Assembly: GCF_900155915.1 (NCBI RefSeq)
Contig: NZ_FTPO01000001.1
Coordinates: 186,001-250,000 of the forward strand
From: Microbacterium sp. RU33B
Lineage (GTDB): Bacteria > Actinomycetota > Actinomycetes > Actinomycetales > Microbacteriaceae
Length of the DNA: 64,000 nucleotides
Reading direction: 5' to 3'
Position numbers and translations under genes: made by a program. Shown in pieces: positions 5,031-16,073 of the stretch. The notes below the pieces were generated by a model. The model saw nothing but the letters and a program-made list of their open reading frames with translations. It was not told where the DNA came from and did no database searches. The first letter of the stretch is position 1. The number at the start of each line of letters is the position of its first letter.

Positions 5031-6728
5031 TCAGATCGTCCGCACCCACACGGTGGTCGCGGCGCCGACCGACCCGTCGTCCGTGGGTGAGCTCGACAGC
5101 ACGACGTCGCCCGCCGGCAGCGCGAACGGCTCGGTGCCGAAGTTCGTCACGACGCTCCAGCCGCCCTCCCGGCGGAAGTGCAGCACGTCGTCGCGCCCCG
5201 TCTCGACCCACTCCAGCGACTCGCTGGTCTGGAGCCGCTCGCGCAGGGCGAGAGCCGCGCGGTAGAGGCTCAGGGTCGACTGCGGGTCGCTCTCCTGCAC
5301 CTCCACGGCGGATGCCGCGAACCACGCCGGCTGCGGCAGGTGCGCGTGCGCCGAGCCGAAGCCGAGAGATTCGCCGTCGGTGGTCCAGGGCAGCGGCACG
5401 CGGCATCCGTCGCGTCCCATGTCGTCGCCGCCGGTGCGGAAGAACGAGGGATCCTGGCGCTCGACGGCGGGGATCTCGGCCACTTCGTGGAGACCGAGCT
5501 CCTCGCCCTGGTACAGGTACGCCGAACCGGGCAGGCCGAGGAGGAACATCGTCGCCGCCCGTGCGCGGCGGAGGCCTCCCTCGCGATCGAGCTCGGGATC
5601 GGTGCCGCCGGTGCGCAGCCACGCACTGCCCTGCTTGACGGCCCCGCGTCCGCGGCTGTCGCGGCCCAGCGGAGGCAGCCCGTAGCGGGTCGCGTGGCGA
5701 ACGACGTCGTGGTTCGACAGCACCCACGTGCTCGACGACCCCGATCGGCTCGCGAGCTCGAGGTTGTGCGTCACGACGTCGCGGAACTCGGCCGCGTCGA
5801 AGTCGGACTGCAGCAGATCGAAGTTGAACGCCTGCCCGAGGCTCGACGGGCTCGCGTACAGGGGCACGCGGTCGGACGCCACCCACGCCTCGGCCACGGC
5901 CGTGCGCGGCGGGTCGTACTCGTCGAAGATCGCACGCCACGCGGCGTAGACCTCGTGCACGTCGTCGCGGTCGACGAGCGGGTGCTTGCCGTCGAAGGGA
6001 AGGGCATCGATCTCGGCCTGCGACGGCAGCGGGTCGGGCAGGTCCTTCGTCAGCATGTGAGCGACGTCGATGCGGAAGCCGTCCACGCCGCGGTCCGACC
6101 AGAAGCGCAGCGTCTTCTCGAAGTCGGCGCGCACCTCGGGGTTGTCCCAGTTGAGGTCGGGCTGCTCCGGCGCGAACGTGTGCAGGTACCACTGTCCGGG
6201 CGTGCCATCCGCTTCTGTGACCTGCCTCCACCCCGGTCCGCCGAACAGCGACTCCCAGTCGGCGGGCGGCGTCGAGGCATCCGGACCTGTGCCGTCGCGG
6301 AAGATGTACCGCTCGCGCGCGGCGGAACCAGGACCGGCCGCCAGCGCCTCCTGGAACCAGGCGTGGTCGTCGGAGGTGTGGTTGGGCACGATGTCGACGA
6401 CGACGCGGATGCCCCGTGCGTGCAGCGCCGCGAGCATCTCGTCGAACTCGGCGAGCGTGCCCAGCCGCGGGTCGACGTTGCGGTAGTCCGCGACGTCGTA
6501 CCCGCCATCGGCGAGCGCCGACGGGTAGAAGGGGCTCAGCCAGACGGCATCCACCCCCAGCTCCGCGAGGTAGTCCGCGCGCGACGTGACGCCCGGGATG
6601 TCGCCCAGGCCGTCGCCGTCGGCGTCGGCGAAGCTCCGCGGATAGATCTGGTAGACGACGGCCTGACGCCACCAGGGCGCTGCGACGTCATCGGCGAGGA
6701 GGTCGACAAGAGGGGACGGCGAGGGCAC
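5031..6728 (-). CDS. Alpha-glucosidase, glycoside hydrolase family 13
   Basis: 565 residues from a GTG start at 6728, chosen because GAAAGGA lies seven bases upstream and the protein then opens just ahead of the conserved WWRQAVVYQIYPRSF. It is a (beta/alpha)8 enzyme that hydrolyses alpha-glucosidic bonds of maltose- or isomaltose-type oligosaccharides. Catalytic residues are visible: nucleophile D221 in DGFRID, acid/base E280 in TAVAEAW, and H340-D341 in LSNHD. VDIVPNHTSD and GVDAVWLSPFYPS are further family motifs. It has no signal peptide, so it acts in the cytoplasm on sugars imported by the transporter encoded immediately upstream. Whether it prefers alpha-1,4 or alpha-1,6 bonds cannot be settled by eye. 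Confidence 0.93.
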   Translation of the reverse strand: MPSPSPLVDLLADDVAAPWWRQAVVYQIYPRSFADADGDGLGDIPGVTSRADYLAELGVDAVWLSPFYPSALADGGYDVADYRNVDPRLGTLAEFDEMLAALHARGIRVVVDIVPNHTSDDHAWFQEALAAGPGSAARERYIFRDGTGPDASTPPADWESLFGGPGWRQVTEADGTPGQWYLHTFAPEQPDLNWDNPEVRADFEKTLRFWSDRGVDGFRIDVAHMLTKDLPDPLPSQAEIDALPFDGKHPLVDRDDVHEVYAAWRAIFDEYDPPRTAVAEAWVASDRVPLYASPSSLGQAFNFDLLQSDFDAAEFRDVVTHNLELASRSGSSSTWVLSNHDVVRHATRYGLPPLGRDSRGRGAVKQGSAWLRTGGTDPELDREGGLRRARAATMFLLGLPGSAYLYQGEELGLHEVAEIPAVERQDPSFFRTGGDDMGRDGCRVPLPWTTDGESLGFGSAHAHLPQPAWFAASAVEVQESDPQSTLSLYRAALALRERLQTSESLEWVETGRDDVLHFRREGGWSVVTNFGTEPFALPAGDVVLSSSPTDDGSVGAATTVWVRTI

Positions 6729-13677: not shown

Positions 13678-14514
13678 TCAGTACCAGCCGGTCGCCTGCG
13701 AGTGCCCCCACGCGCCGCACGGCGAACCGTATCCGCGGGCGATGTAGTCCAGGCCCCAGATGATCTGCGTCGTGGCGTTGGTCTGCCAGTCCGCGCCGGC
13801 GCTCGCCATCTTGTCGCCCGGCAGCGACTGCGGGATGCCGGTCGCGCCGCTCAAGTCGTTGTAGGCCTGGTAGTCCCACCCCGACTCGCGGTTCCAGAGC
13901 GACACGAGGCACGAGAGCTCGCCGGATCCCCACCCGCGCTCGGCCGCCATGCGGGCCGCCGTGGCCTGGGCGCCCTCGACCGTGTTGGCGGCGGCGAGGG
14001 CCGCCGCGGCGGCCTCGGCTTCGAGGCGCGCCTGCTCGGCGGCTGCCGCGGCCTCCTCGGCCGCCTTCTTCTCGGCGACGGCGGTGTCCAGCGCGCCGCG
14101 GAGAGCCTGCGTCTCGGCCACCACCTCTGCCGTCTCATCGGCCGCGGTCTCGACGACGTCGGGGAGGAGGAACAGCGGCATGACCTCGATCGTCGCCAGA
14201 TCGTCGATGGCGGCGACGAGGTCGGCGGTGTCGATCGTCGTGTCGGCGGTGTCCAGCACGAGTCCGGACGCGGTCACGTCGTCGACAACGACGTCGGCGG
14301 CGGCCACGGCCACGCGCGCCTCCGAGAGAGTCGCCCGCGCCTGGTCGGTGATGGACGCGATGGGCACAGCCTGGGGCTGGATGCCGGATGCGGCGACCGC
14401 CGTGGCGGCGGTCGACAGGACGAGGCCCGCGACGATTCCGAGCGCCACGGACGGGCGGGCGAAGCGGCGTGCGGTGGAAGGGCGGGCGGTGCGAGGGGCG
14501 CGCGAGGAAGTCAT
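13678..14514 (-). CDS. Secreted transglycosylase-like wall protein (APF C-terminal type)
   Basis: 278 residues. A signal peptide (positively charged start, then VALGIVAGLVLSTAATAVAA) is followed by a long Ala/Glu-rich, probably coiled-coil region (residues ~120-195). The C-terminus, ~residues 196-278, is a lysozyme-like domain: SCLVSLWNRESGWDYQAYN with probable catalytic E210, then GATGIPQ and a terminal CGAWGHSQATGWY. Such domains cleave or bind peptidoglycan and occur in aggregation-promoting factors and resuscitation-promoting-factor relatives. The coiled coil plus lysozyme fold suggests a wall-remodelling enzyme acting outside the cell. Translation starts at the ATG at 14514; AAGGA lies 13 bases upstream, at the end of the folded leader described next. 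Confidence 0.85.
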   Translation of the reverse strand: MTSSRAPRTARPSTARRFARPSVALGIVAGLVLSTAATAVAASGIQPQAVPIASITDQARATLSEARVAVAAADVVVDDVTASGLVLDTADTTIDTADLVAAIDDLATIEVMPLFLLPDVVETAADETAEVVAETQALRGALDTAVAEKKAAEEAAAAAEQARLEAEAAAAALAAANTVEGAQATAARMAAERGWGSGELSCLVSLWNRESGWDYQAYNDLSGATGIPQSLPGDKMASAGADWQTNATTQIIWGLDYIARGYGSPCGAWGHSQATGWY

Positions 14515-14520
14515 CGGAGA

Positions 14521-14613
14521 GCGTGGATCCTTCGGGTGAGTCCGTGCCGCCGCCCGCGCGGCGGGCTTCCTCGTCGGGTACGAGGGGCGGCACAAGTCCC
14601 CGAGTCTGCGGGG
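14521..14613 (-). promoter_or_regulatory. Folded 5' leader, possible c-di-AMP-type riboswitch
   Basis: Read on the minus strand, three helices can form. A hairpin is at 14598-14602/14609-14613. Next comes an 8-bp stem (14586-14593 with 14544-14551) closing a compact three-way junction with two hairpins, 14569-14573/14581-14585 and 14552-14557/14561-14566. GGACTCACCCGAAGG then follows before the start codon. In actinobacteria the ydaO (c-di-AMP) riboswitch often precedes wall hydrolases and ends in a GACTC...CCGAA segment. The upstream GGTGAAT and the terminal CAGCTAACC motifs are not clearly present, so the class assignment is tentative; the structure itself is seen directly. Confidence 0.35.
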
Positions 14614-14745
14614 CTCGTCTGGACGAAACCCCGGGTTGTCCTGGCAGAAGCATGAGAGGCGGGTCGGCAGGGCTGGCGCCGTGAGTGCAGGGGAGCCGGG
14701 CGCGGTTGCGCTCCTCCCGGCCCTGTGACACACTCTCGGTGTCCG

Positions 14746-14762
14746 TATCTTAAGCGCATAAG
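14746..14762 (+). promoter_or_regulatory. Promoter -10 and LacI-like operator of the GH3 sugar operon
   Basis: TATCTT (14746-14751) is a good -10. CTTAAGCGCATAAG (14749-14762) is a 14-bp palindrome with one mismatched pair and a central CG, the usual geometry of LacI-family sites, overlapping the -10 and the predicted start of transcription. The operon's last gene encodes a LacI regulator, the natural candidate to bind here. Confidence 0.6.
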
Positions 14763-14804
14763 AAGCGCGGAACCCCTGCGATGGGGTCGTTCGAGGAGGA
14801 ACAC

Positions 14805-16073
14805 GTGAAGAAGACAACACAGCTCGGGGCCGTCGCGGGAGTCGTGGCTCTCGCCATCACCCTGACCGGCTGCGGACGAGCGGATGACGCCGAGACTCCG
14901 GATGCCGGAGCCGCGACGACGATCGGATCCGAACCCGCCACGGGCACGCTGACGATGTGGGCGATGGGCACGGAGGGCGAACTGCTCCCCGAGTTCGTGA
15001 AGGAGTTCGAAGAGGCGAACCCTGACGTCGAGATCGAGGTCACGGCGATCCCCTGGGACGCCGCCTACAACAAGTTCCAGACCGCCATCGCGGCCGGCAA
15101 CACCCCCGACCTCGCAATGGTCGGCTCGACGTGGATGGCCGACTTCACCGACGCGTTCACCAGCGTCCCCACCGACCTGTCGACCGAGGACTTCTTCGAC
15201 GGATCGATGACGACCAACGAGGTCGCCGATCGGACGGTCGGCGTGCCGTGGTACGTGGACACGCGCGTCCTCTACTACCGCACCGACCTGGCCGCCGAGG
15301 CCGGCTGGGATGCCGCTCCAGCGACGTGGGACGAACTGAAGCAGCTGGCGTCCGACTACAAGACCCAGGCGGGCGCCGAGTTCGGCATGCGCCTGCCGGC
15401 GGGCAACGACTCGTTCCAGGGGACCCTGTGGATGCCGTGGTCCAACGGCGGAGACGTCACCGACGGCGACGCCTGGACGCTGGACACACCCGAGATGGTC
15501 GAGGCCTACGAGTACTACCAGAGCTTCTACACCGAGGGACTCGCCGACGCGAACGCCGACATCTCGTCCGGTGCGCAGGAGGCGGCGTTCGTCGACGGCA
15601 GCACGCCGATGCTCATCGACGGACCGTTCATGCGCAGCCAGCTGGCGACGCTCGGCGGCGAGGGCTTCGAGGACAAGTACGCCACTGCGGTCGTCCCCGC
15701 GAAGGACTCGTCCGTCTCCTTCAGCGGCGGGGCCAACCTCGTCGTCTTCGAGAACGGCGACAACCAGCGCTCCGCATGGAAGCTGGCTCAGTGGCTGACG
15801 CAGCCCGAGACCCAGGTCTCGTGGTGGGAGACCTCCGGCGACCTGCCTTCGACCCAGTCTGCGTGGGACGACCCCGCCCTCACCGCTGACGAGGACCTCG
15901 CGACATTCGGCACGCAGCTCGAGACGGCCCGTCCGACGCCCGTGACCACGACGTGGGTGCAGGTCGCCGCGGCCGCCGACCAGGCTCTCGAACTGATCCG
16001 TCGCGGCCAGACCTCGGTCCAGGATGCTCTGACCGAGCTCCAGTCCAAGGCGGACGCCATCGGGATGGGATGA
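14805..16073 (+). CDS. Sugar ABC transporter substrate-binding lipoprotein
   Basis: 422 residues from GTG 14805; GAGGAGGA ends four bases before it, which decides this start over an in-frame ATG 24 bases upstream. Signal peptide KKTTQLGAVAGVVALAITL with lipobox TGC (C23). The mature part is a family 1 sugar-binding protein: GTLTMWAMGTEGELLPEFVKEFE, then DLAMVGSTWMADF, VPWYVDTRVLYYRTDL and AWKLAQWLTQPETQVSWWE. It is the first gene of a five-gene operon with two permeases, a GH3 enzyme and a LacI regulator. The linked beta-glycosidase suggests a beta-linked gluco-oligosaccharide as ligand (inference). Confidence 0.94.
   Translation: MKKTTQLGAVAGVVALAITLTGCGRADDAETPDAGAATTIGSEPATGTLTMWAMGTEGELLPEFVKEFEEANPDVEIEVTAIPWDAAYNKFQTAIAAGNTPDLAMVGSTWMADFTDAFTSVPTDLSTEDFFDGSMTTNEVADRTVGVPWYVDTRVLYYRTDLAAEAGWDAAPATWDELKQLASDYKTQAGAEFGMRLPAGNDSFQGTLWMPWSNGGDVTDGDAWTLDTPEMVEAYEYYQSFYTEGLADANADISSGAQEAAFVDGSTPMLIDGPFMRSQLATLGGEGFEDKYATAVVPAKDSSVSFSGGANLVVFENGDNQRSAWKLAQWLTQPETQVSWWETSGDLPSTQSAWDDPALTADEDLATFGTQLETARPTPVTTTWVQVAAAADQALELIRRGQTSVQDALTELQSKADAIGMG

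Follow-up and report, generated by a model that had tools for sequence, protein, structure and literature searches.

Leaders targeted by CsrA/RsmA carry several copies of the motif GGA in their loops, and one of these copies often lies at the ribosome-binding site (RBS). In ompA-type 5' stabilisers, a stem lies within a few nucleotides of the 5' end. The 6C RNA (RF01066) of actinobacteria, a free small RNA, has hairpins with C-rich loops. The ydaO riboswitches for c-di-AMP (RF00379) lie mostly upstream of cell-wall genes in actinobacteria, according to PMC9960051, and the nlpC riboswitch of C. glutamicum likely acts on translation. Here, we describe a structured leader in Microbacterium sp. 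RU33B, within a 64,000-nt stretch of contig NZ_FTPO01000001.1 (hereafter, the window). This leader belongs to a structured-RNA family that is absent from Rfam 15. Its features are collected in Table 1.

Table 1. Features of the leader, its promoter region and the downstream gene (positions in the window)
Feature	Position	Strand	Basis
First CAG of the 22-bp direct repeat (approximate consensus TCGTCCAGG/A), belonging to the promoter DNA and not to the RNA	14641..14643	-	CAG-N19-CAG conservation
Second CAG of the 22-bp direct repeat	14619..14621	-	CAG-N19-CAG conservation
-10-like hexamer CAGACT (putative promoter element)	14603..14608	-	CA(G/C)A(C/A)T recurs across the leader alignment
Predicted transcription start (A of ACUUGUG)	14597	-	-10 spacing and recurring CTTG(T/C)G
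Closing stem P0, 5' strand GTGCCGCC (GUGCCGCC)	14586..14593	-	pairing and folding
Hairpin A, CCUCGU-ACCCG-ACGAGG; CCCGA motif in loop	14569..14585	-	fold; counterparts in L002 and L204
Linker AA between hairpins A and B	14568-14567	-	sequence
Hairpin B, GCCCGC-CGC-GCGGGC	14552..14566	-	fold; L002 and L204 pair through different arms here
Closing stem P0, 3' strand GGCGGCAC	14544..14551	-	pairs with 14593-14586
Terminal segment GGACUCACCCGAAGGAUCC; last CCCGA copy adjoins Shine-Dalgarno-like GAAGGA	14525..14543	-	sequence
Gene for a 278-aa protein; C-terminal AggPromo_Cterm, signal-like N terminus (by eye)	13678..14514	-	NF052397

The leader in the window and its downstream gene

The first-pass annotation proposed that a secreted gene may be preceded by an RNA element, either divergent or new. 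This proposal is supported by the present analysis, and the gene encodes an AggPromo_Cterm protein. Residues 201-278 match NF052397 with E 1.2e-33 and 115.4 bits, above the curated cut-off of 40. No Pfam family matches the protein up to E 0.001, with one weak match at E 0.47 among up to 10, and no convincing relative was found in the PDB, where the best match (E 0.0094) is a stretch of ribosomal protein L9. The protein is probably secreted and wall-acting. It has one match in its own genome and is matched in all 58 other same-genus genomes, some of these matches covering the C-terminal domain only. Matches were also found in 91 of the 98 relatives searched and in 96/100 Microbacteriaceae genomes, both counts including its own genome. 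The ATG at 14514 was chosen as the start by comparison with relatives. Since the reading frame continues upstream without a stop as far as a GTG at 14820, a longer protein is also compatible with the frame. The divergent neighbour is a gene for a solute-binding protein (PF13416 and PF01547), read from 14799 on the plus strand.

An 8-bp closing stem around two hairpins, with two unpaired bases between them, had been claimed for this leader and was borne out at 14593-14544 on the minus strand. The three-way junction upstream of the ATG is real. The 55-nt core has a minimum free energy (MFE) of -36.6 kcal/mol compared with -22.5 for shuffled sequences (z -4.68; 0/200 shuffles as good), and the segment 14521-14613 reaches -47.9, where its shuffles average -37.4 (z -3.10; 1/200 as good). 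The whole 281-nt intergenic stretch is ordinary (z -0.45; 65/200 as good), and thus the folding signal is local. The loop of hairpin B in the window lacks CCCGA. On the same strand, GGACTCACCCGAAGG begins at 14543; the sequence 3' of hairpin B reads GGACTCACCCGAAGGATCC and is followed by the start codon.

The same junction is the MFE structure of the 54-56-nt cores, each folded separately, of M. ulmi (L002), M. fluvii (L204) and genome G030 (L045). These separate folds are the support for the junction outside the window, with z values of -3.34 for L002, -1.17 for L204 and -1.47 for L045, the last two not significant alone. In a context of 85-90 nt, L001, L002 and L204 keep the junction, and L045 folds otherwise. 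The arms of hairpin B are GCCCGC/GCGGGC in the window, CGAC/GUCG in L002 and GCGGCCG/CGGUCGC in L204; in L002, a competing GCGAC/GUCGC pairing places CCCGA in the loop. RNAalifold did not recover hairpin B from a three-sequence alignment, in which the hairpin B arms are misaligned.

The upstream regions of the orthologues share a common order of CAG-N19-CAG, CA(G/C)A(C/A)T and CTTG(T/C)G, followed by one of several architectures. Its first CAG precedes the -10-like hexamer by 35 or 36 nt in 72 of the 74 Microbacterium anchors. In the window, the 22-bp-period direct repeat (about TCGTCCAG) spans 14619-14643 on the minus strand, at this near-fixed distance from the hexamer. A LytTR regulator was considered for the repeat on the basis of the LytTR consensus. 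The LytTR domain was not found in G000 and in 8/14 other same-genus genomes searched. Because the domain is absent from many genomes although the repeat is general, this reading was dropped. Separately, GTAACGAAgagATAACGCT-like repeats occur in type C and some other leaders (types are described below), and the window is without them. MtrA-like GTAACG direct repeats with an 11-bp period are seen in the promoters of types C and D (L022-L026, L028-L030, L067 and L088), and not in the window. The MtrA consensus of C. glutamicum, (A/G)TAACAATttn(A/G)TAACAAT, has repeats of 8 bp separated by a 3-bp linker (PMC3353115), and its layout as given there fits the GTAACGAAgagATAACGCT-like repeats.

Interchangeable architectures and a repeated loop motif

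Tandem hairpins, a nested hairpin and the junction interchange within the genus, and the linkers vary. Type A has, for example, GCGTCC-GACCCGA-GGACGC and a second hairpin. Type B is a long stem around CTC-CCGAT-GAG, followed by CGAC-GACCCGAAA-GTCG. Type C consists of two tandem hairpins, for example, GTGTCG-ACCCGA-CGACAC and then CGCGCTCG-ATCCCGA-CGAGCGCG. Type D, found in paralogues, has, for example, GTCCG-CCCGAA-CGGAC and a second hairpin, and in the window type, a long stem encloses two hairpins. The leaders hold 1 to 5 copies of CCCGA, often as ACCCGA, and these loop letters persist while the architecture varies. An extra tandem CCCGA hairpin in M. ureisolvens (L174) and a doubled 3' hairpin in L149 suggest module duplication.

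A sequence-only anchor yielded 77 distinct leaders, 72 of which have the CAG repeat. The five anchors without it are three chance matches outside Microbacterium and two in Microbacterium (L048 and L158). Clustering at 85% ungapped identity reduced the 72 leaders to 51 non-redundant ones, which contain 104 CCCGA and 0 TCGGG in 90 nt. Since many loci were fetched by a pattern containing CCCGA, the fair count of the motif is that of a protein-chosen set of 50 upstream regions, each comprising the 330 nt ahead of the match, of which 43 have CAG-N19-CAG and 29 have the strict anchor. In the 90 nt after the anchor, these 29 leaders have 62 copies of CCCGA and none of its reverse complement TCGGG, compared with 129 and 34 in the entire protein-chosen upstream regions. 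The 62 to 0 count shows that the motif is strand-specific, as expected of RNA.

The placement of the motif is also constrained. The first CCCGA lies in a hairpin of at least 5 bp in 44/51 leaders, compared with a mean of 25.2 and a maximum of 32 when the 3' flanks are swapped. Its mean stem is 6.59 bp versus 4.61 bp with swapped flanks, a value reached by 0/1000 swaps. The pairing probability of the first CCCGA core is 0.11, as opposed to 0.44 for CCCGA in shuffled sequences. Later copies are in hairpins in 14/53 cases against 5.2 with swapped flanks. Many leaders also have a copy close to the start codon: CCCGA is directly followed by AAG/AGG in 24/51 leaders and a CGAAAG-type end is found in 9/51, so that a copy adjoins a Shine-Dalgarno-like GAAAG/GAAGG in 33/51; the other 18 have neither and are without an RBS-adjoining copy.

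Stems covary in the homologous leaders. The leader types were analysed apart because the covariance model R1, trained on 11 leaders of type C, gives no more than a weak match to the leader of the window (E 0.0022 when 213 kb were searched; E 0.034 in its own genome, where it outranks a second match). The shuffles used here leave relatedness in place. For the 26 first hairpins with short stems, the score is 0.365 versus 0.249 (sd 0.025) and 89.0% of cells are paired versus 81.5, neither value being reached by any of 500 shuffles; two of the five measures are similar to shuffles (both-side changes, 177/500; further pair types, 360/500). With the partners slid by +2, these hairpins have 3 versus 2 pairs changed on both sides, yet a lower score. 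On score, every structure exceeds all of its own slid versions. The innermost pair changes between C-G and G-C (10 and 8 sequences), a change that separates types and may represent few events. Among the 10 type-B (nested) sequences, 98.8% of cells are paired and 3 pairs are changed on both sides, with 0/500 shuffles as good on score and cells and 54/500 on pair types. The signal is weak in the 13 long-stem first hairpins (score 0.139 versus 0.114, 29/500; cells paired, 150/500) and in the 11 type-C sequences, which hardly vary (score, 32/500).

These results bear on whether the element could be a DNA operator, or chance pairing of GC-rich sequence, rather than an RNA structure. The GC content is high, the 281-nt stretch behaves like its shuffles, the DNA direct repeat sits just upstream, and over the 51 leaders the mean fold-energy z is only -1.19, with values below -2 in 11/51. 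We nevertheless regard this explanation as very improbable: the arms change with the pairing kept, and the motif is specific to one strand. According to the first-pass annotation, a lack of covariance-model matches together with a lack of covariation would have meant simple GC-rich pairing. Rfam models indeed give no match, but covariation is present in the homologous leaders, and hence only one of the two holds.

Pairing is concentrated near the predicted 5' end. In the 51 leaders, nucleotides 5-9 have a mean pairing probability of 0.94 compared with 0.54 in shuffles, and they are paired with a probability of at least 0.9 in 39/51 leaders versus 18/204 shuffles. The first paired nucleotide is at position 3-5 in 44/51 folds versus 66/204. 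Such figures, and the interchangeability of the architectures, are what a plain 5'-end stabiliser would give, in which the stem does no more than shield the mRNA and nothing binds the loop letters. That explanation appears somewhat unlikely to us, as it leaves unexplained the retention of CCCGA in loops, its repetition, its frequent adjacency to the RBS and the zero count of reverse complements.

Distribution and the c-di-AMP question

The pattern of promoter plus CCCGA occurs in 39/99 same-genus genomes, and the backward control in 0. Across a collection of 84,980 species, CAGACTCGNNNACTTGYGN{0,14}CCCGA was found at 47 loci. Of these, 44 are named Microbacterium, and the three others (Piscinibacter, Melainabacteria and Paraburkholderia) are without the gene. 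By tblastn, the gene family lies within 1.6 kb downstream in 37 of the 44 Microbacterium loci, one of which (L169) has a match of 16 residues only, at a locus that ends early; the remaining 7 loci stop within 727 nt. In 39 same-genus genomes, R1 gave 15 matches up to E 0.04 (14 genomes), all upstream of listed protein matches; weaker matches were mixed, and 14 genomes had none up to E 1. Only 1/29 loci of other genera of the family was matched by R1 (L125, E 0.039). Because the pattern loci are nearly all in Microbacterium and R1 matches so few loci of other genera, the leader is essentially restricted to this genus, where many species carry it; we do not claim that it is universal there.

The strict anchor misses 21 of the 50 protein-chosen regions. 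By eye, leader variants are present in L009, L018, L025, L026, L042, L043 and L045 without the strict anchor, a variant lies farther upstream than 330 nt in L056, and the upstream regions of L051 and L052 look different. In other genera of the family, CATTGGA recurs near the start codon (L113, L117, L119, L120, L131 and L136; by eye), possibly as a different leader or an RBS motif. A search for a regulon or partner with a triple-ACCCGA pattern matched 43/59 genomes, more than the backward-pattern control. Among the matches listed, most look by eye like short-period repeats, and one is the leader of G028, so that the pattern gave no lead to a regulon or partner.

The first-pass annotation also linked the leader to c-di-AMP riboswitches. 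None of the 4227 models of Rfam 15 matches in the window at the gathering cut-off, and no match is found up to E 10 in 14400-15000, RF00379 included. In 14 orthologue loci, Rfam gave two below-cut-off matches to microRNA families (L013 and L028), neither in the leader. With strict filters, RF00379 was found in 0/35 same-genus genomes versus 16/23 other genomes of the order, and in 0/100 genomes of the family it exceeded the cut-off, the one weak match being of 25.4 bits in G218; the search controls, B. subtilis and C. glutamicum, were positive. The DAC domain (PF02457) is likewise found in 0/35 same-genus genomes versus 18/23 other genomes of the order, and in 0/100 family genomes (85 genera), with 11/14 controls positive. 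It appears from these searches that c-di-AMP signalling has been lost throughout the Microbacteriaceae. Since the searches found no c-di-AMP-synthesising enzyme in these bacteria, a c-di-AMP switch is very unlikely, and the identification of the leader as one was rejected. A divergent ydaO riboswitch would accord with the tendency of the class to precede cell-wall genes in actinobacteria (PMC9960051), and with its place before this gene in G081 described below. With neither an RF00379 match nor a DAC domain, we give this explanation practically no weight; it is refuted unless these bacteria import c-di-AMP or have a synthase in which no DAC domain can be recognised.

In G081, which belongs to another family of the order, an RF00379 match at C6:6432-6585 (minus strand) ends just before an in-frame ATG at 6426. 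This ATG belongs to a copy of the AggPromo_Cterm gene, the only such pairing among the matches listed. A canonical c-di-AMP riboswitch thus heads the same gene in G081, and the Microbacterium leader is structured, precedes a probable wall gene and folds into a junction in the window type, all of which would suit a new class of metabolite riboswitch. This possibility is nonetheless improbable. The architectures swap within one genus, the linkers vary, the conserved letters are those of short loops, and neither a terminator nor an expression platform was identified; with no constant core, a small-molecule aptamer becomes less likely.

A putative trans-acting factor and comparison with known systems

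The existence and the fold of the leader are well supported, and its mechanism is what we infer from them. Our preferred reading, tentative and held at a little under an even chance, is that the structured 5' leader of the AggPromo_Cterm gene presents CCCGA loops to a putative trans-acting factor, with its 5' stem perhaps acting against decay. The mRNA would start at about 14597, and the 5'-proximal stem would slow decay that depends on the 5' end. The repeated CCCGA would be bound by the putative factor, either a protein or an RNA carrying UCGGG, which may also use the RBS-adjoining copy where one is present. Binding would then set translation or stability. In a broader form, a lineage that has lost c-di-AMP synthesis would have placed a wall-associated family under a Csr-like post-transcriptional code of modular, duplicable CCCGA loops read by its own putative factor. 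We regard this broader form as speculative and rather unlikely.

The literature consulted, mostly without subscription papers, gave no description of the element among the matches listed for Microbacterium leaders, structured RNAs or ACCCGA hairpins. No paper on an aggregation-promoting factor in Microbacterium and nothing relevant on c-di-AMP in Microbacteriaceae were found there. Because this leader family, new to Rfam 15, covaries, heads a single clear family of target genes and repeats a motif in its loops, its partner can be sought directly. The lack of a recognisable DAC domain in the 100 sampled genomes of the family, when most sampled genomes of related families have it, raises a testable question, namely, what replaced c-di-AMP in the control of wall-associated proteins.

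The leader can be placed among the described systems as follows. Like the c-di-AMP riboswitch, which stands before this gene in G081, it is a leader RNA before a probably wall-related actinobacterial gene; it differs in size and motifs and is without a match to the model. It shares hairpins with C-rich loops with the 6C RNA, but it is a leader and has no Rfam match. As in the ompA-type stabiliser, a stem lies close to the 5' end, but in Microbacterium the loop sequence is conserved too. The arrangement may also resemble that of CsrA/RsmA targets, in that a short motif is repeated in loops (first copy, 44/51 leaders) and in many leaders adjoins the RBS as well (33/51). The letters, however, are CCCGA and not GGA, and the partner is presumably different.
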